Shown piece after piece: positions 11,460 through 51,443 of a DNA stretch of 64,000 nucleotides (position 1 is its first letter; the number at the start of each line of letters is the position of its first letter). Source of the DNA: Bacteroidota bacterium (GTDB lineage Bacteria > Bacteroidota > Bacteroidia > 2-12-FULL-35-15); the NCBI GenBank assembly GCA_947479085.1, contig CANJYB010000001.1, positions 186,001-250,000 of the forward strand, in the 5' to 3' direction. Under the pieces are notes generated by a model. The model ran no database searches. It was not told the DNA's origin and was given only the letters and a program-made list of their open reading frames with translations. The position numbers and the translations under genes were made by a program.

Positions 11460-11717
11460 ACTAAAAGATTATGCCATCAATATTTGATTTTTCCGCCTTT
11501 GTTGTTATTTTCACCAACAAACTTCCCCCATCAACAATTGCTTTTTTTTATTTGAAAAGATACTCCCTGTTTATTAATAAACGGTCTTCCCGCTTTACAC
11601 TCCAATCTTTTTCTTTTTTTGAAATAAAAAAAGAAAAAGGATTTCCGTTTCAATCGGGTTTAGATGGAGAGCGGGTTGGTTTTCAAAACTTTTTAAATAT
11701 ACCACCAGCAAGCAAAA

Positions 11718-11771: not shown

Positions 11772-12764
11772 CTAATACAATTGCAAAGTAAAACTGATGT
11801 CCTCACCACTGGTGGTAACCACTGTTAAGTGGCGGTTTACCCCATAATCAACCACATGAAAATCAGCAGCTGTAAATTTATGATTCTGTCCATCCAGAAT
11901 GATAACCGGAGTGCTATCGCTACCTCCCGGGGTGCTTGCCAAAAACATTTTTACATCACCTCCCACCGCTTTTACCCTTAGTTTACTATTGAAAACCATG
12001 GTGCGTGTGGCTATATCCCTCGTTTCAGGATTGTGCAAAGTAAGGTTAAATGTTTTTTGCTGACGGGCCTGTATCACCTCCAGGTCGTGAAACGATTTTA
12101 TTTTTCGTTCCTTTTCAGGGTCGCTTCGGAACTTATTTATTTCCAAACCCAAATCACCAAACTGCATTTCCAGTGCAGCTGTTATAGCTTCGTCCAACGC
12201 CCCGCGTGTTATTCCGGTGGTTACTATGGCCGATTTCTGGGTGCTTCGGCCCGGCTTTATAATATTGTATTCCGCATCCACTTCGTCTTTTATAGCCACC
12301 ATCAACTCATTATCATCAGCACCTATATTAAGGCTCAGCGTTCTTAAAGCCGCTATAATATTGTCTTTCCCGTTTTTATAAAAAGGTTTTAACCCATCAG
12401 AATAAATGGCCTTGAACCTTGCAGGGTTGCTGATGGCATATATGGCTGCTATGCGGTTATACCAGTCGCGCGCCTTTCCGCGCTTGCCCTTAATGGCTTT
12501 CAGGCGGTCGTTCACGTTCACTGTCAGTCCTTCCTGTGCTGCTTCTATATTATAGTACGCATTGTATTTCAGTTCAGCCGCATCTCTCAGCGTGTGAAAT
12601 CGTGTGTACCATGCCGAATAATCCGTATCGGTGGAATACGCATCTTTCCATGATTTTAAAGCCGCATCATGAAAAAATATTTGTTTCATTGCATTTTCAT
12701 CGCTGTCTCTTGCAGCAACGATAAACGGGTTGCTCGAAAAGAGCCATCTTCTGTCTAAAGCCAT
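11772..12764 (-). CDS. Orphan cytoplasmic protein beside a periodic array
   Basis: 330 residues, no signal peptide and no membrane segment; I do not recognise the family. Residues 1-210 look mainly helical, with aromatic-rich turns (SAWYTRFHTLRDAAELKYNAYYNIEAAQ, in two halves, and GKARDWYNRIAAIYAI). After a charged linker (DPEKERKIKSFHDLEVIQARQQK) the last 90 residues look beta-rich (TFNLTLHNPETRD, LRVKAVGGDVKMFL, HLTVVTTSGEDISFTLQLY). The gene starts 48 bp from a 252-bp periodic repeat array (12812-13063). The general plan (helical N-part, beta C-part, array nearby) resembles that of the protein at 33784, but no clear sequence match was found. The coding pattern is normal and the gene has its own terminator. 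Confidence 0.75.
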   Translation of the reverse strand: MALDRRWLFSSNPFIVAARDSDENAMKQIFFHDAALKSWKDAYSTDTDYSAWYTRFHTLRDAAELKYNAYYNIEAAQEGLTVNVNDRLKAIKGKRGKARDWYNRIAAIYAISNPARFKAIYSDGLKPFYKNGKDNIIAALRTLSLNIGADDNELMVAIKDEVDAEYNIIKPGRSTQKSAIVTTGITRGALDEAITAALEMQFGDLGLEINKFRSDPEKERKIKSFHDLEVIQARQQKTFNLTLHNPETRDIATRTMVFNSKLRVKAVGGDVKMFLASTPGGSDSTPVIILDGQNHKFTAADFHVVDYGVNRHLTVVTTSGEDISFTLQLY

Positions 12765-12811
12765 TGGTTATTAAATTTATTGGTTTATATATTGATTATT
12801 AATTTTAGTTG

Positions 12812-13063
12812 TCGTTACCCGTAAGTCCGGGATATGTAAAACGTGTTTACTTTTGGTAACACAGAAGTCGGGAGTGCAGAAAGCATGTCCCAATGTCAGG
12901 TTACCGATGTCTGTGTTACTGCGAACGTGCCTGTTTGTCGTGTTGCCGAAGTCGGGGATGCTTAAACTAAACTCGTTTGTCGTATCCCGGACTTCTGTGT
13001 TATGACGCACACGCTTGTTTGCCCTATCCCGGATGTGTGGGAACCGGCAAACAAAATTTTCCT
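12812..13063. repeat. Periodic array C: six 42-bp units made of alternating 21-bp halves
   Basis: Exactly 252 bases that can be cut into twelve 21-mers. Odd halves resemble TCGTATCCCGGACTTCTGTGT; even halves resemble TATGACGCACACGCTTGTTTG. The units are degenerate but in strict register, with no insertion or deletion across 252 bases. Read on the minus strand it gives a 14-residue peptide period (VRHNTEVRDTTNEF, SLSIPDFGNTTNRH and so on), but that frame has no other sign of being a gene. There are no unique spacers, so it is not CRISPR. Confidence 0.8.
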
Positions 13064-29550: not shown

Positions 29551-29767
29551 GGGACGAAGGACGCAAAAACGGGGCGAGGGACGATACGCTCCCTGAAGTA
29601 ATAAGTGATGAATTACTCAATCCCATTTTCATTTAATTTTATTCTTTAGTGTTTATTGTTATTAATACCTAATTATAACTCCTCGCCCCTCGTCCCTTTT
29701 TTCGTCCCTCGTCCCTTTTTCCGTCCCTCGTCCCTTTTTTCCGTCCCTCGTCCCTTCTTTCGTCCCT
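29551..29767. repeat. GTCCCTC repeat array, left side of the four-helix gene
   Basis: At 29680-29767, about four units of CGTCCCTCGTCCCTTTTTC type (18-20 bp). Two inverted single units (GGGACGAAGGACG, GGGGCGAGGGACG) are at 29552-29585. The same unit forms the array at 30167-30380 on the other side of the gene. Confidence 0.85.
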
Positions 29768-30139
29768 TTATTTCCCTTCCTTTTTCTTTTCCTCCAATGT
29801 CTGTATTGATTTTGTCAACATTGAAATAATTGCATCCAGTTTTTCAGTTCGTTGTGTTATCAAAGTTTCATTTAATAGAAATTTACTCTTTCTATACCAA
29901 CCTTTGCTTTCACGTGCCGAACCTCTTGAGATTCTTAAAAACTGAGGATATTCTTTTCCAAATCCTCTTCCATAACCTTCTTCAATATTCGCGGATATTG
30001 AGCCGACACATCGGATTAATTGTTTTGTTAATTCTTTACCTCTTACGTCTTTTAGTAAAACTTCCGAATCTCCCCAGCACTCATCCCATAGTTCCAAAGA
30101 AAGCTGATAAAACCTGATTTCATCCAATCTATCTTTCAT
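29768..30139 (-). CDS. Four-helix-bundle protein (23S rRNA intervening-sequence family)
   Basis: 123 residues, all-helical, with the family pattern: 'FYQLSLELWDECW', 'KELTKQLIRCVGSISANIEEGYGR', 'KEYPQFLRISRGSARESKGW' and an end helix 'ISMLTKSIQTLEEKKK' (motifs given in parts). The fold is that of the S23/IVS proteins encoded in split 23S rRNA genes and of the Avd accessory protein of diversity-generating retroelements. Here it stands alone inside the moxR-bat operon, between two tandem arrays of one 19-bp unit. Function unknown; there is no reverse transcriptase and no rRNA nearby. Confidence 0.85.
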   Translation of the reverse strand: MKDRLDEIRFYQLSLELWDECWGDSEVLLKDVRGKELTKQLIRCVGSISANIEEGYGRGFGKEYPQFLRISRGSARESKGWYRKSKFLLNETLITQRTEKLDAIISMLTKSIQTLEEKKKEGK

Positions 30140-30166
30140 TCTATTCCATTTGTTTTAGTTAGCGCT

Positions 30167-30380
30167 CCCTTGCCCCACGCCCCTTTTCCGTCCCTCGTCC
30201 CACGTCTCCTCTTCCGTCCCTCGTCCCATCTTCCGTCCCTCGTCCCTACTCTCGTCCCTCGTCCCTTCTTCCGCCCCTCGTCCCTACTATCGTCCCACGT
30301 CCCTTTTCCGTCCCTCGTCCCTATTATCGTCCCTCGTCCCTTCTTCCGCCCCTCGTCCCTTCTTCCGTCCCTCGTCCCCC
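30167..30380. repeat. GTCCCTC repeat array, right side of the four-helix gene
   Basis: About eleven units of the 19-bp type CGTCCCTCGTCCCTTCTTC, with third-position-like changes (CGCCCCTCGTCCCTACTAT, CGTCCCACGTCCC). It reaches to 1 bp from the moxR stop codon (30381). On the minus strand it reads as GGGACGAGGGACG. Confidence 0.88.
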
Positions 30381-31367
30381 TTAAGGTACCTCAATCGTAT
30401 TTAAAATCTCATTCACTATCATCTCCGAAGTAATGTTCTCCGCTTCGGCTTCGTAGGTAAGGCCGATACGGTGGCGCAACACATCTGTACAGATGGCACG
30501 CACATCTTCCGGAATAACATACCCTCTGCGTTTAATAAATGCGTATGCTTTGGCAGCCATTGCCAGGTTAATACTTGCACGTGGCGAACCACCGAAGCTA
30601 ATCAACCCTGCAAATTTATTCAGTTTATATTCAGCCGGGAAACGTGTTGCAAACACAATGTCCACTATGTATTTTTCAATTTTCTCATCCATGTACACAT
30701 CCTTCACCACCTTACGTGCGTTCAGAATGTCGTCTGTTTTTAATATTTGATTTACAGAAGGGTATTCCGAAGCAAGGTTCTGGCGGATGATTTTACGCTC
30801 ATCTTCCTTGTTAGGATATCCTATAACTACTTTCAGCATAAAACGATCCACCTGCGCTTCCGGCAATGGATACGTACCTTCCTGTTCAATCGGGTTTTGA
30901 GTAGCCAATACCAGGAAAGGATTAGGAAGTTTAAACGTTTGCTCACCTATGGTCACTTGTTTCTCCTGCATCGCTTCAAGCAAAGCTGACTGCACTTTTG
31001 CAGGGGCACGGTTAATCTCATCGGCCAATATAAAATTAGCGAAGATGGGACCATGCTTTACGGTAAACTCTTCTTTCTTTTGACTATAAATCATGGTACC
31101 AATCAAATCGGCTGGTAACAAGTCGGGTGTAAATTGAATACGGCTGAAGTTAGCATGAATGGTATTGGCAAGCGATTTAATCGCAAGGGTTTTTGCCAGT
31201 CCCGGAACTCCTTCCAGCAGAATGTGTCCGTTGCTCAACAGTCCTATTAACAGACGTTCTACCATGTATTTCTGACCTACTATTACTTTATCCATTTCCA
31301 AAGTAAGCAGGTCAACAAATGCAGATTCGCGTTGAATGCGTTCGTTTAATTCTTTAATATCAGTCAT
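30381..31367 (-). CDS. MoxR-family AAA+ ATPase
   Basis: 328 residues. Walker A is 'GVPGLAKT', Walker B 'FILADEINRAPAKVQ', with sensor 1 'LATQNP' and 'GTYPLPEAQVDRF', the MoxR signature. It is the first gene of the moxR-DUF58-Bat operon and probably acts as a chaperone that modifies the VWA proteins. Confidence 0.93.
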   Translation of the reverse strand: MTDIKELNERIQRESAFVDLLTLEMDKVIVGQKYMVERLLIGLLSNGHILLEGVPGLAKTLAIKSLANTIHANFSRIQFTPDLLPADLIGTMIYSQKKEEFTVKHGPIFANFILADEINRAPAKVQSALLEAMQEKQVTIGEQTFKLPNPFLVLATQNPIEQEGTYPLPEAQVDRFMLKVVIGYPNKEDERKIIRQNLASEYPSVNQILKTDDILNARKVVKDVYMDEKIEKYIVDIVFATRFPAEYKLNKFAGLISFGGSPRASINLAMAAKAYAFIKRRGYVIPEDVRAICTDVLRHRIGLTYEAEAENITSEMIVNEILNTIEVP

Positions 31368-31623: not shown

Positions 31624-32952
31624 TTAATTTCTTCTGTACGTTCTTATTTTAGCATCCTTGCCTTTCAGTTTTTCTTTCTGTGCAGGTCCGCCAAGGTTTA
31701 CTTTTTTATTCTTCTCTTTCTTTTCATGAAAAGCAGGACCGGGAACATACGTATCCTTGCCCTTCTTCTGCTTTATCTTATCCACCATCTTCGGCAGTTC
31801 ATCATCCGTCAGCACTTTCGAAATCACCACACCTTCCGGCAATGGCTCATACGGAATCGCTTTATTCATCACGGTTTCTATCTCCACCTGGTAATCCAGT
31901 TCTGCTTCGCTTATAAACGTAATCGCCACACCATCCTTGTTTGCCCTTCCGGTACGGCCTATTCGGTGTATGTAATCTTCGGGCGTTTCAGGCGTATCAA
32001 AGTTCACCACATGCGTCACATCCGTTATGTCAAGCCCGCGGGCCACAATGTCCGTAGCCACCAGCACTCTTTTGGTTCCCTCATGAAACTGCTTCAGCGC
32101 ATTAATCCTTGCCGTTTGCGAAAGGTTGGAATGTATCACCACCACTTCCTCCGGAAACCGCATCTTCAGCGTATCAAACAAACTATCCGCGAGTTTCTTG
32201 GTACCCGTAAACACCAGCACCTTCACCAGGCTCTCATCATTCTTCAGCAAATACTCCAGCAAATTTACCTTGGTATTAAAGTTCGGAACATGATAACATA
32301 CCTGTATAATTTTTTCAAGCGGGGTACCATGTGGAGTCACTTCTATCTTATGCGGTTCGTAAAAATATTTTCCAATCACTCCTTCTATCTCCTCATTCAT
32401 CGTGGCCGAAAACAGCAGGTTCTGCCTTTTGTTCGGCAGCGACTCCAGGAAACTCAGCAGCTGCTGCCTGAACCCCAGGCTCAGCATCTGGTCCACTTCA
32501 TCTATCACCAGTTGTTTAATATCTTTCAATCTCAAAATCCCTGTCAGCGAAAGGTCCACCAGCCGGCCCGGAGTAGCCACTATAATATCCACCCCGTCAT
32601 ACACCAGTTGCTTTTGCGTAGCCATGTTGGTGCCCCCGTATATCGCCACAAAGCGCACACTCATGTAAGTGCTCAGCTTCTCTATCTCCCTCACTATCTG
32701 CAGCACCAGCTCCCTGGTAGGCACCACCACCAGCACCCTCGGGTGGCGCTTTTCCGAATACTTCAGCTGCCTCAGTATGGGCAGCAGGTAAGCAAACGTT
32801 TTACCCGTACCCGTTTGCGCTATGCCTATCACATCCCGCCCCGACATAATTATGGGGAACGCCTCCACCTGTATAGGAGTTGGCTCTATATAACCCAGTT
32901 CATTTAATGCATTCAGCAAAGGTTTGCTTAAGTTTAGTTTTTCGAACGACAC
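31624..32952 (-). CDS. DEAD-box RNA helicase
   Basis: 442 residues with Q motif ('NELGYIEPTPIQVEAFP'), I AQTGTGKT, Ia PTRELV, Ib TPGR, II DEVD (a DEAD variant), III SAT, IV 'VLVFTGTK', V 'ATDIVARGLDI' and VI HRIGRTGR. A short basic tail (KKEKNKKVNLGGPAQKEKLKG) is usual for the RhlE-like group. It probably remodels RNA in ribosome assembly or cold response. The array A element (33153-33537) points toward its start, 200 bp away. A 453-codon open frame on the other strand is a shadow. Confidence 0.93.
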   Translation of the reverse strand: MSFEKLNLSKPLLNALNELGYIEPTPIQVEAFPIIMSGRDVIGIAQTGTGKTFAYLLPILRQLKYSEKRHPRVLVVVPTRELVLQIVREIEKLSTYMSVRFVAIYGGTNMATQKQLVYDGVDIIVATPGRLVDLSLTGILRLKDIKQLVIDEVDQMLSLGFRQQLLSFLESLPNKRQNLLFSATMNEEIEGVIGKYFYEPHKIEVTPHGTPLEKIIQVCYHVPNFNTKVNLLEYLLKNDESLVKVLVFTGTKKLADSLFDTLKMRFPEEVVVIHSNLSQTARINALKQFHEGTKRVLVATDIVARGLDITDVTHVVNFDTPETPEDYIHRIGRTGRANKDGVAITFISEAELDYQVEIETVMNKAIPYEPLPEGVVISKVLTDDELPKMVDKIKQKKGKDTYVPGPAFHEKKEKNKKVNLGGPAQKEKLKGKDAKIRTYRRN

Positions 32953-33152: not shown

Positions 33153-33280
33153 AAAAGAACCTTAATAGGACTACATGGGCAGGCAAGACCCAAATATGTC
33201 AAAAATGCAGTAAAAATAACGCCAAATCGGCATGAAATGAGCTGCGCTTAGTGGGACAAGGGTTTCCAAAGGAAAAAAAA
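33153..33280 (-). repeat. 128-bp conserved flank of array A
   Basis: The reverse complement aligns without gaps to 51261-51388; about 110 of 128 bases agree by hand count. It begins with T8 then CCTTTGGAAA and includes TGCCGATTTGGCGTTATTTT and AGTCCTA(A/T)TAAGGTTC. In both copies it touches the end of a 21-bp array. Confidence 0.85.
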
Positions 33281-33285
33281 GGCTG

Positions 33286-33537
33286 TCGTAAGATGTAAAA
33301 CTTCAATTGACAGATGTAAAACTTCAATCGTAAGATGTAAAACTCCAATTGACAGATGTAAAACTTCAATCGTAAGATGTCAAACCTCAATCGTAAGATG
33401 TAAAACTCCAATTGACAGATGTAAAACTTCAATCGTAAGATGTAAAACTTCAATCGTAAGGTGTCAAACTTCAATTGACAGACCTCAAACTTCAATTGAC
33501 AGATGTCAAACTCCAATCGTACGACCTCAGTAAGCAA
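33286..33537. repeat. 21-bp tandem array A, 12 units
   Basis: Twelve units of exactly 21 bp (252 bp), no indels. Two main forms are TCGTAAGATGTAAAACTTCAA and TTGACAGATGTAAAACTTCAA, in the order 1-2-1-2-1-1-2-1-1-2-2-1 (last one diverged). Read on the minus strand it would give LRLKFYI/CQLEFYI heptads, but there is no start site or other support for a protein. The array ends right at the conserved flank. Confidence 0.92.
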
Positions 33538-33705
33538 TCGAAGGCTATTTTAGGTTTTTTGAAAAAGGAGGGCAACAATGGGTTAAATAATAGCTGAAAT
33601 ATTATGTAGCTGAAAAATGACATTATAATATATAGTATATGGAAAAAGAATGGTACAAAAACCGGTTTTCAGATACGTATAAAAAATGAAAATAATGATA
33701 ATTAT

Positions 33706-33736
33706 TTTGTTTATTTAAAAAAATGTAATAATTTTG
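33706..33736 (+). promoter_or_regulatory. Full Bacteroidota promoter for the gene at 33784
   Basis: TTTG at 33706-33709, a 19-bp spacer and TAATTTTG at 33729-33736 fit the sigma-ABfr consensus TTTG-N19-TAnnTTTG exactly. The start codon lies 47 bp downstream. Confidence 0.75.
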
Positions 33737-33783: not shown

Positions 33784-34716
33784 ATGGCTAAACCAGTTTT
33801 CAATTGCAGAATTGAGGAAGTACCTATAATTGGTAACTTCGTCTACAGTTCGTTTGGAAGGGATACTTCAGCATTTGCTCCGTATACGGACTATGATGCT
33901 CCTTTTCCAGCTAACTTTTTGTCCGCCTTAAACGGTGTGAGGGCAGCAGCGCTTCCTGTTGTACTCAATAATCAAATGAAGCAAGTAACTTTTAATTTGC
34001 TAACGGATATGTATGGAGTTCGGGCAAAGGTGAATGATGCAGAAATTTATTTTTTTAATGCAGGCAGCACGCTGAACGTAAGCCCTAAGGATATGGGGCA
34101 GAGTGCAGTGAGAAGGGCAGTAAACAGGGGCGATGTGGAAGCACTTGTTACTGCAATGATTGGTATGAATCAATTGATAGCAAGTAATAGTAATGCTTTG
34201 ATTGCGAAAGGGTTTACGTTGATAAAACAGAATGCCCTGGTGACTACTGCGGGAAATTTGTTTCGTGATAATAATATTCAAAATACACTTTACGAACAAA
34301 AGATAGATCTTGCTGTTACTAACATGGTACTTTATAATAATTTCTGGAGTACATACGTAGGACCTGTTTGCTTAACAGGGAAATTGATTTTTAAAGTTAC
34401 TAATAAAAGTAAGGCTAAAGAATATACCATTTCTGCACTGAAGGGAAGGATAAGGGCTGATGAAAAAGAGACATGGGTATTTGGAAAAGTGACTGATGTA
34501 AATAATGCAACTATAAGCAGGGCTAAGGTGAAACTGATACCTGTGGATGGTGGTAGAACGAAAACCGGATACACTGATAAAGGTGGTAATTTTAAAATTA
34601 CGGGTATGAGGGCTACTGATTATAACATGGTGGTAACGTTTGGTACTATGGTAAAAATTATTGCTATTACTGTGGTGACAAGGGTACATCTTGAGCAGAA
34701 TGTTCAGCTTTCATAG
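33784..34716 (+). CDS. Orphan protein with C-terminal carboxypeptidase-regulatory-like domain
   Basis: 310 residues without signal peptide or membrane segment. The N-terminal 205 residues seem helical with a repeated 'NDAEIYFFNAG', 'DMGQSAVRRAVNRGDVEALV' pattern; I recall similar proteins only from Bacteroidota. Residues about 229-308 form a carboxypeptidase-regulatory-like (transthyretin-type) beta domain: WVFGKVTDVNNATISRAKV, 'KTGYTDKGGNFKITGM', 'NVQLS'. Such a domain is usually extracellular, so the lack of a signal peptide is odd. It has a full promoter and its own terminator. Array A begins about 250 bp upstream. Confidence 0.72.
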   Translation: MAKPVFNCRIEEVPIIGNFVYSSFGRDTSAFAPYTDYDAPFPANFLSALNGVRAAALPVVLNNQMKQVTFNLLTDMYGVRAKVNDAEIYFFNAGSTLNVSPKDMGQSAVRRAVNRGDVEALVTAMIGMNQLIASNSNALIAKGFTLIKQNALVTTAGNLFRDNNIQNTLYEQKIDLAVTNMVLYNNFWSTYVGPVCLTGKLIFKVTNKSKAKEYTISALKGRIRADEKETWVFGKVTDVNNATISRAKVKLIPVDGGRTKTGYTDKGGNFKITGMRATDYNMVVTFGTMVKIIAITVVTRVHLEQNVQLS

Positions 34717-51037: not shown

Positions 51038-51256
51038 CCTTCCGATTGAGGTTTGAGTACCTCCGATTGTTTACCATGTACCTCCGCTTGTGTACCATGT
51101 ATCTCCGCTTGTGTACCATGTACCTCCGCTTGTGTACCATGTACCTCCGTTTGTGTACCATGTACCTCCGTTTGTGTACCATGTACCTCCGATTGTGTAC
51201 CATGTACCTCCGCTTGTGTACCATGTATCTCCGCTTGTGTACCATGTACCTCCGAT
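51038..51256. repeat. 21-bp tandem array B
   Basis: Nine exact-length units from 51059 (ACCTCCGCTTGTGTACCATGT with A/C/T changes at one place and ACC/ATC at the start), one diverged unit before (51038) and a half unit at the end. The diverged first unit (CCGATTGAGGTTTGA) matches units of array A on the minus strand (CGATTGAGGTTTGA, 14 bases), so A and B are related. Open frames through it (7-residue periods) are by-products. Confidence 0.92.
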
Positions 51257-51260
51257 ACCC

Positions 51261-51388
51261 TTTTTTTTCCTTTGGAAAGCCTTGTTACACTATGCTTACC
51301 TCATTTCGTGCCGATTTGGCGTTATTTTTACTGTAAATTTGGCATATTTAGGTCTTGCGTCCCTTTGTAGTCCTAATAAGGTTCTTTT
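51261..51388 (+). repeat. 128-bp conserved flank of array B
   Basis: Gap-free match, about 86% by hand count, to the reverse complement of 33153-33280. It touches array B and lies 82 bp before the Kelch gene. Confidence 0.85.
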
Positions 51389-51443
51389 ATGGGGTATTAT
51401 TACCTTAAATTCACAAAAAAACTACCATATTACAATAAATAAC

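Follow-up and report, generated by a model that had tools for sequence, protein, structure and literature searches.

What is the run of 21-bp direct repeats that lies in this stretch of a Bacteroidota genome, does its period carry any meaning, and to which of its neighbours does it belong? The window, by which we mean the whole 64,000-bp stretch analysed, contains this repeat run (hereafter array A) between a DEAD-box RNA helicase gene and a gene encoding a 310-aa protein. The original prediction, made from the letters of the window, had described one or two arrays. Array A is real, but it belongs to a population of arrays that extends over a whole clade and is tied to particular protein families.

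Structure and Neighbourhood of Array A

Array A consists of 12 consecutive 21-bp units covering 252 bp, with no indels (Table 1). It had been described as twelve exact units: the number of units, their equal length and the lack of indels all hold, but their sequences are not exact, being about 82% alike. Tandem Repeats Finder (TRF) reports an 82% match at period 21 and an 89% match at period 63. Two unit types, beginning with CAATCGTAAGATG.. and CAATTGACAGATG.., are indeed present, but they are irregularly mixed instead of strictly alternating as had been stated. The units follow one another head-to-tail and there are no spacers between them, in agreement with the claim that the array is not a CRISPR. 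When the ends of the arrays were compared, no flanking inverted repeat was detected at array A.

The unit had been thought to point to the DEAD-box helicase. Orthologues of this helicase in sister species have no array alongside, which argues against the association, and the relevant neighbour of array A is the downstream gene, rather than the flank or the helicase. The start codon of this gene lies about 250 bp from the array, and the gene is presumed to be the module gene of array A, an assignment made by layout only. This layout is the usual one, but no homologue of the 310-aa protein could be detected among the sequences examined, nor is the protein detectably a member of family F1 (described below). 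A single-sequence structure model of the protein (pLDDT 32) was of no use.

Other repeats occur in the window. Two arrays of 19/38-bp units (CGTCCCTCGTCCCT...), the period of which is not a multiple of 21, are located at 29683-29767 and 30166-30382, and bracket a 123-aa ORF (29768-30139, minus strand) that bears a by-eye likeness to four-helix-bundle/23S intervening-sequence proteins.

Table 1. Positions of array A, related arrays and adjoining features in the window.
Feature	Position	Strand	Basis or remark
DEAD-box RNA helicase, flank side of array A	31624..32952	-	orthologues in relatives without adjoining array
Gene-distal flank of array A	33153..33281	+	inner ~75 bp (GCCAAATCGGCATGAAATGAGCT...TTTCCAAAGGAAAAAAAAGG) kept at five sites of the genome; diverged in G005
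Array A, twelve 21-bp units, two unit types	33282..33533	+	repeat analysis; ~82% match
Degenerate distal end of array A, CAATCGAAGG	33534..33545	+	sequence comparison; resembles distal ends of sister arrays (CAATCGGAAGG)
Promoter match of Bacteroidota type, TTG-N19-TAATTTTG, in the gap separating array A from its downstream gene	33707..33736	+	consensus match only
310-aa protein, C-terminal carboxypeptidase-regulatory-like domain	33784..34716	+	PF13620, E 6e-9
Array B, 21-bp period, ~9.4 units	51057..51254	-	TRF; 94% match
Flank copy adjoining array B	51253..51406	-	83% identity
330-aa protein	11772..12764	-	relative of L194:10209-11159
Hidden degenerate array, 42-bp period, upstream of the 330-aa gene	12795..13046	-	lag-42 identity

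A Flank Conserved beside Different Arrays

The flank of array A is most strongly conserved over the ~75 bp adjoining the array. Five flank-array copies are present in the genome: those of arrays A and B, and one on each of contigs C3, C33 and C16. The copy on C3 shows 84% identity and is joined to a similar array, and those on C33 and C16 show 73-87% identity over the inner ~75 bp. Each flank-linked array has its own unit, although all of them carry the common core AATCG(G/T)A(A/G). Sister arrays B and C face unrelated genes. In addition, species G005 possesses a diverged flank homologue, with zero mismatches to our 20-base flank pattern, which runs into a 21-bp array (L057) of another sequence. 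The suggestion that the flank is kept beside a different array was borne out, and represents one instance in which an array has been replaced while flanking DNA was conserved.

Within the genus, the 20-base pattern search recovered the flank in no other member than G005; weak matches in G031, G033 and G000:C11 were inspected and judged to be due to chance. The strict flank pattern had no match in viral or GTDB contigs. As for the unit core (AATCGGAGGT), a search across the class found it in arrays of genome G000 only, other matches being at the control level. Two other possibilities were considered for the locus and rejected. An RNA element in the flank is not supported, as folding of the flank is not above that of shuffles and Rfam has no match near array A, nor at the arrays. 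A phage or plasmid origin was discarded because no phage match was found, and the only plasmid matches were two weak ones to Borrelia plasmids, involving repeat sequence alone.

A Genome-Wide Class of Arrays with a Locked Period

The genome (class Bacteroidia) amounts to 4.28 Mb in 50 contigs, of which ~20% (856 kb) was read. TRF identified 65 tandem arrays in these 856 kb, 43 of which have a period of 21, 42 or 63 bp. As so many arrays share a period that is a multiple of 21 bp (hereafter 21n), chance need not be invoked for array A. The sequences of the 21n arrays are mutually unrelated, and several 42-bp units have unrelated halves. The class is characterised by about ten units or ~200 bp (median length ~200 bp; similar means for 21-bp and 42-bp units, 184 and 236 bp, respectively), a unit of 21, 42, 63 or up to 168 bp, a sequence private to the locus, and an intergenic position, typically 100-250 bp upstream of genes belonging to a few uncharacterised families. 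Array A is a member of this class of period-locked arrays, with its gene placed by layout.

The search also missed at least one array in the window itself. The 330-aa gene is preceded by a degenerate array that escaped TRF, yet its lag-42 identity is 0.548, versus a best value of 0.413 in 300 shuffles, and lags 41 and 43 are not raised. A relative, L194:10209-11159, is itself preceded by a 42-bp array at a distance of 53 bp. This hidden array suggests that many more arrays go undetected. Directly downstream of the 330-aa gene, we also observed a Flavo-1 small RNA (RF01705, 72.9 bits; 11582-11665, minus strand).

The DNA helix has a repeat of 10.5 bp, and 21 bp corresponds to two turns. That this length matters, as originally proposed, is supported by the fact that many unrelated arrays keep their period to multiples of 21 bp. 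The phased bending proposed at the same time did not hold: arrays exceed full shuffles in predicted intrinsic curvature, but no more than expected of any 21-bp repeat, and show no excess over unit-permuted arrays (p uniform). We rejected curvature as a selected property.

Spacer orientation makes no difference to the frequency of arrays (13-14% each for tandem, divergent and convergent spacers), which indicates that many arrays are not promoter elements. Two orphan 21n arrays (L168:8663-8846 and L173:18604-18845) are located in convergent spacers, with no facing start codon. In 3 of 42 cases, a promoter consensus was found in the gap separating the array from its gene. Variable positions are clustered within units (combined p 5e-5). 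Self-complementarity of the arrays is equal on both strands and exceeds that of controls with permuted units (mean z -1.2 and -1.4), and dyad symmetry of the unit is strong in a few arrays only.

Distribution among Species

Tandem-repeat searches of the genome and its relatives showed that 21n arrays, abundant here, also occur in sister species G015, G034, G005, G004 and G014, and at one locus in G012. A maximum-likelihood tree built from the helicase groups all seven array-bearing species in a single clade (support 85/87). Most of the relatives listed in GTDB are metagenome bins, and fresh water is the probable source of many of these. No such arrays were detected in G009 or G010 (200 kb read of each) or in G024 (60 kb), 20 further genus regions contained nothing convincing (essentially no 21n arrays), and the outgroups, Flavobacteriaceae among them, yielded none in 841 kb; the array-free genomes were mostly sampled at 20-60 kb each. 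In G027, the 40 kb examined contain no 21n array apart from those at F1 genes. A chance minisatellite had been expected to lack counterparts in related genomes, or to lack the flank beside them. Relatives do have arrays, and the flank stands beside one in G005.

Linkage to Family F1 and Other Proteins

The genes that adjoin arrays include several paralogous families, among which F1 is an uncharacterised family of proteins of ~223 aa. No relative of F1 was found in Pfam, NCBIfam, PADLOC or PHROGs, nor in the PDB by sequence search. It has no match to DNA-binding families and is not strongly basic (median pI 7.4). Among 36 genus genomes, F1 is present in the seven array species, with 5-15 copies each, and weakly in G027, and was not found in the remaining 28.

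The linkage between F1 and arrays is very tight. Genes were called as simple open reading frames. Considering those with at least 300 bp of upstream sequence and arrays within 800 bp upstream, 36 of 37 F1-type genes among the best 40 of 60 matches have an upstream 21n array, including those of G027; another count likewise placed one before nearly all F1 genes. The corresponding figure for other genes of this genome is 30/453 (6.6%), and comparison genes give 0/267 in G009 and G010, 0/185 in other genus members and 1/512 (0.2%) in outgroups. Under a stricter criterion, 40 of 48 F1 genes have an upstream array and eight do not. Elsewhere in the class, F1 homologues have a 21n array in 13 of 17 cases, and so do 10 of 17 homologues in a further set, drawn from the family that includes G120; two of these ten cases are weak. 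The best periods of the 40 F1 arrays are 21 bp (19 arrays), 42 bp (seven), 63 bp (seven), 84 bp (two) and 126 bp (one), with single values of 41, 41, 62 and 127 bp for the others; all are thus multiples of 21 or one base off. Twenty-seven of these 40 arrays are free of indels, with units often differing by 20-30%.

Upstream 21n arrays were also found at four of five genes of a 255-aa family, and at two of two genes in each of two families of 300-311 aa. In the HTH-coil family, an array faces three of three genes here, versus none of two in the array-free relatives G009 and G010; the small HTH-plus-coiled-coil proteins L176:6883-7293, L198:8978-9313 and L201:3023-3400 have a 21n array 84-138 bp before their start. 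Inspection of the sequences by eye, aided in some cases by domain matches, suggests that F1 and the other families share a similar layout, with a probable N-terminal helical part and a C-terminal beta-sandwich-like part.

Array Replacement and Array Ends

Between some paralogues, arrays are replaced as wholes while their surroundings persist. In G004, paralogues L332 and L347 encode proteins that are 81% identical, and their arrays show no similarity. The flanks of these two arrays are kept: the 323-bp segment that links the array to the gene, start codon included, is 76% identical, and the 53 bp immediately preceding the array are 81% identical. Likewise, comparison of L351 (G005) with L178 (G000) reveals conserved flanks and a replaced array. 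The array of L347 resembles those of L333 and L181.

Inverted repeats are present at the ends of 25 of 89 arrays at a score of at least 12, versus 1.2 expected, and reach 24 bp at L178:6452 and 23 bp at L332. Their sequences differ between loci. As the arms include unit sequence in some cases, palindromic units contribute to them. The array bracketed by the 24-bp inverted repeat (L178:6452-6643) has a 42-bp unit and lies 248 bp upstream of an isoleucyl-tRNA synthetase-like gene.

Competing Explanations

Twenty-one bp is also the length of seven codons, and arrays could encode heptad-repeat peptides, all the more as many of them contain open frames (e.g., 33199-33537, minus strand). However, an open frame is found in 27 of 29 arrays when 24.9 are expected after permuting unit columns, and some indel-free arrays have none. 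Nor is there a consistent non-synonymous deficit, and array A, when read in its minus frame, shows non-synonymous changes exclusively. With open frames close to the permuted expectation and no signal of purifying selection, we rejected a protein-coding repeat as extremely improbable; the absence of a convincing protein frame had been correctly anticipated. A second explanation invokes mutation: the replication or repair machinery of the clade would duplicate DNA in 21-bp steps, and the resulting minisatellites would turn over in long spacers without any function. This would account for a step that is fixed regardless of sequence, for the equal rate in all spacer orientations and the orphan arrays of convergent spacers, for homogenised units with degenerate ends, and for the restriction to a clade. 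It is at odds with the near-perfect linkage to one protein family across bacterial families (G027 included), with the lack of indels in most F1 arrays despite such unit divergence, with units of 42 bp or longer that have unrelated halves, with the clustering of conserved positions in units, and with flanks that are retained while the array is replaced. We regard neutral turnover as unlikely.

The inverted repeats raise the possibility of a recombination cassette, in which they would let arrays invert or be exchanged in the manner of invertible promoters, the 21-bp units being recombinase or accessory sites. Inverted repeats far above control, such as those of 23-24 bp at L332 and L178:6452, and the wholesale replacement of arrays between conserved flanks would both be expected. 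But these repeats differ by locus, so that one site-specific recombinase cannot recognise all of them, and most arrays, array A included, lack them altogether; we noticed no recombinase gene in the neighbourhoods inspected. Such a cassette therefore seems quite unlikely. Transcription of the arrays into repeated RNA units similar to a type III antitoxin, with the downstream protein as the effector, would be in keeping with a locus-private tandem array directly upstream of a small protein gene, and with self-complementarity exceeding that of permuted controls. Yet there is no RNA reason for a 21n lock, the folding excess is equal on both strands, as with DNA dyads, and just three of 42 modules have a terminator-like hairpin between the array and its gene. 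Neither a ToxN-type or other Pfam match nor an Rfam match at the arrays was found, and an RNA-based system appears quite unlikely.

A Candidate Phased Binding Platform

The explanation we tentatively prefer, while giving it somewhat less than even chances, is that each array is a helically phased, locus-specific candidate protein-binding platform governing the adjacent gene. A 21n period that is blind to sequence is most simply explained by a helix constraint, which argues for arrays acting in double-stranded form and for a protein assembling along them. As 21 bp is the shortest whole-base length commensurate with a 10.5-bp helix, every unit would present the same face over ~200 bp. The array would thus work as double-stranded DNA, and its units would be putative binding sites, in which cores that are palindromic in part are joined by spacers that vary. 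The cognate binder may be the product of the adjacent gene, or an HTH-coil protein, as such proteins also adjoin arrays of this kind. Cooperative assembly along the array would then control or insulate the adjacent gene, and replacement of the array would switch the specificity of the module. Cognate operators would agree with the site-like character of the units, with their palindromic content and with the proximity of HTH-coil genes. Several observations count against a binding platform: F1 has no DNA-binding match and is not strongly basic, arrays favour no spacer orientation, the promoter consensus is rare, the gene of array A is not detectably F1, array A has no inverted repeat, and the genes next to its sister arrays B and C are unrelated.

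The presence of arrays upstream of almost every F1 copy points to an undescribed element of gene control or addressing. At a broader level, we consider the chances to be even that these loci constitute an undescribed and widespread Bacteroidia module, made of an uncharacterised protein and a private array whose sequence is free, whose repeat length is 21n-locked and which would act as an address exchanged as a cassette, possibly for self-recognition, addiction or chromosome organisation. We found no description of such modules in the open-access literature. A period that is conserved when the sequence is not, and that is tied to one family across bacterial families, is hard to accommodate in known models. 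The arrays would represent an unusually clean case of helical phasing constraining a genome, and they offer a first lead on F1, whose proteins are of unknown function. Paired modules with swapped arrays provide a natural experiment on what arrays specify.

Comparison with Known Systems

Known regulatory, CRISPR, toxin-antitoxin and satellite models are the ones that fit poorly. Type III toxin-antitoxin systems (ToxIN, CptIN, TenpIN) resemble our modules in having a locus-private tandem array directly upstream of a small protein gene, and in existing as many divergent copies. Their repeats are ~34-48 nt long, with a length that varies between families, and form RNA pseudoknot units, whereas periods are 21n-locked here. 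In these systems, a hairpin terminator lies between array and gene (PMC8860590). A simple scan of our 42 modules found such a hairpin on the gene-sense strand in the three mentioned above, on the other strand in seven, and none in array A. No ToxN/CptN/TenpN-type endoribonuclease was recognised either, F1 having no match in Pfam, NCBIfam or PADLOC and no PDB relative by sequence.

Bacterial VNTRs and minisatellites are also intergenic tandem repeats with local homogenisation, and intergenic tandem repeats with structural variants have been described in freshwater Planctomycetota (PMC9426551). VNTR periods vary, however, whereas our arrays have a fixed 21n period, rare indels and a linkage to genes. 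As in the CRISPR leader-array arrangement, a conserved flank abuts a repeat array here, but our arrays have neither spacers nor a fixed repeat sequence.

The iterons of plasmid replication origins are 17-22 bp direct repeats that recur every two helical turns and are bound by a cognate protein. Our arrays are likewise direct repeats phased by two helical turns, but they exist as many chromosomal copies with unrelated sequences and units of up to 168 bp. No replication initiator was found beside the arrays examined, the neighbours being F1-type, HTH-coil and housekeeping genes. Finally, in the invertible promoters (invertons) of Bacteroides, inverted repeats bracket a ~200 bp segment upstream of a gene. 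End inverted repeats are strong in about a quarter of our arrays, array A not being one of them, but they are locus-specific and limited to this minority, and what lies between them is a phased array instead of a single promoter.
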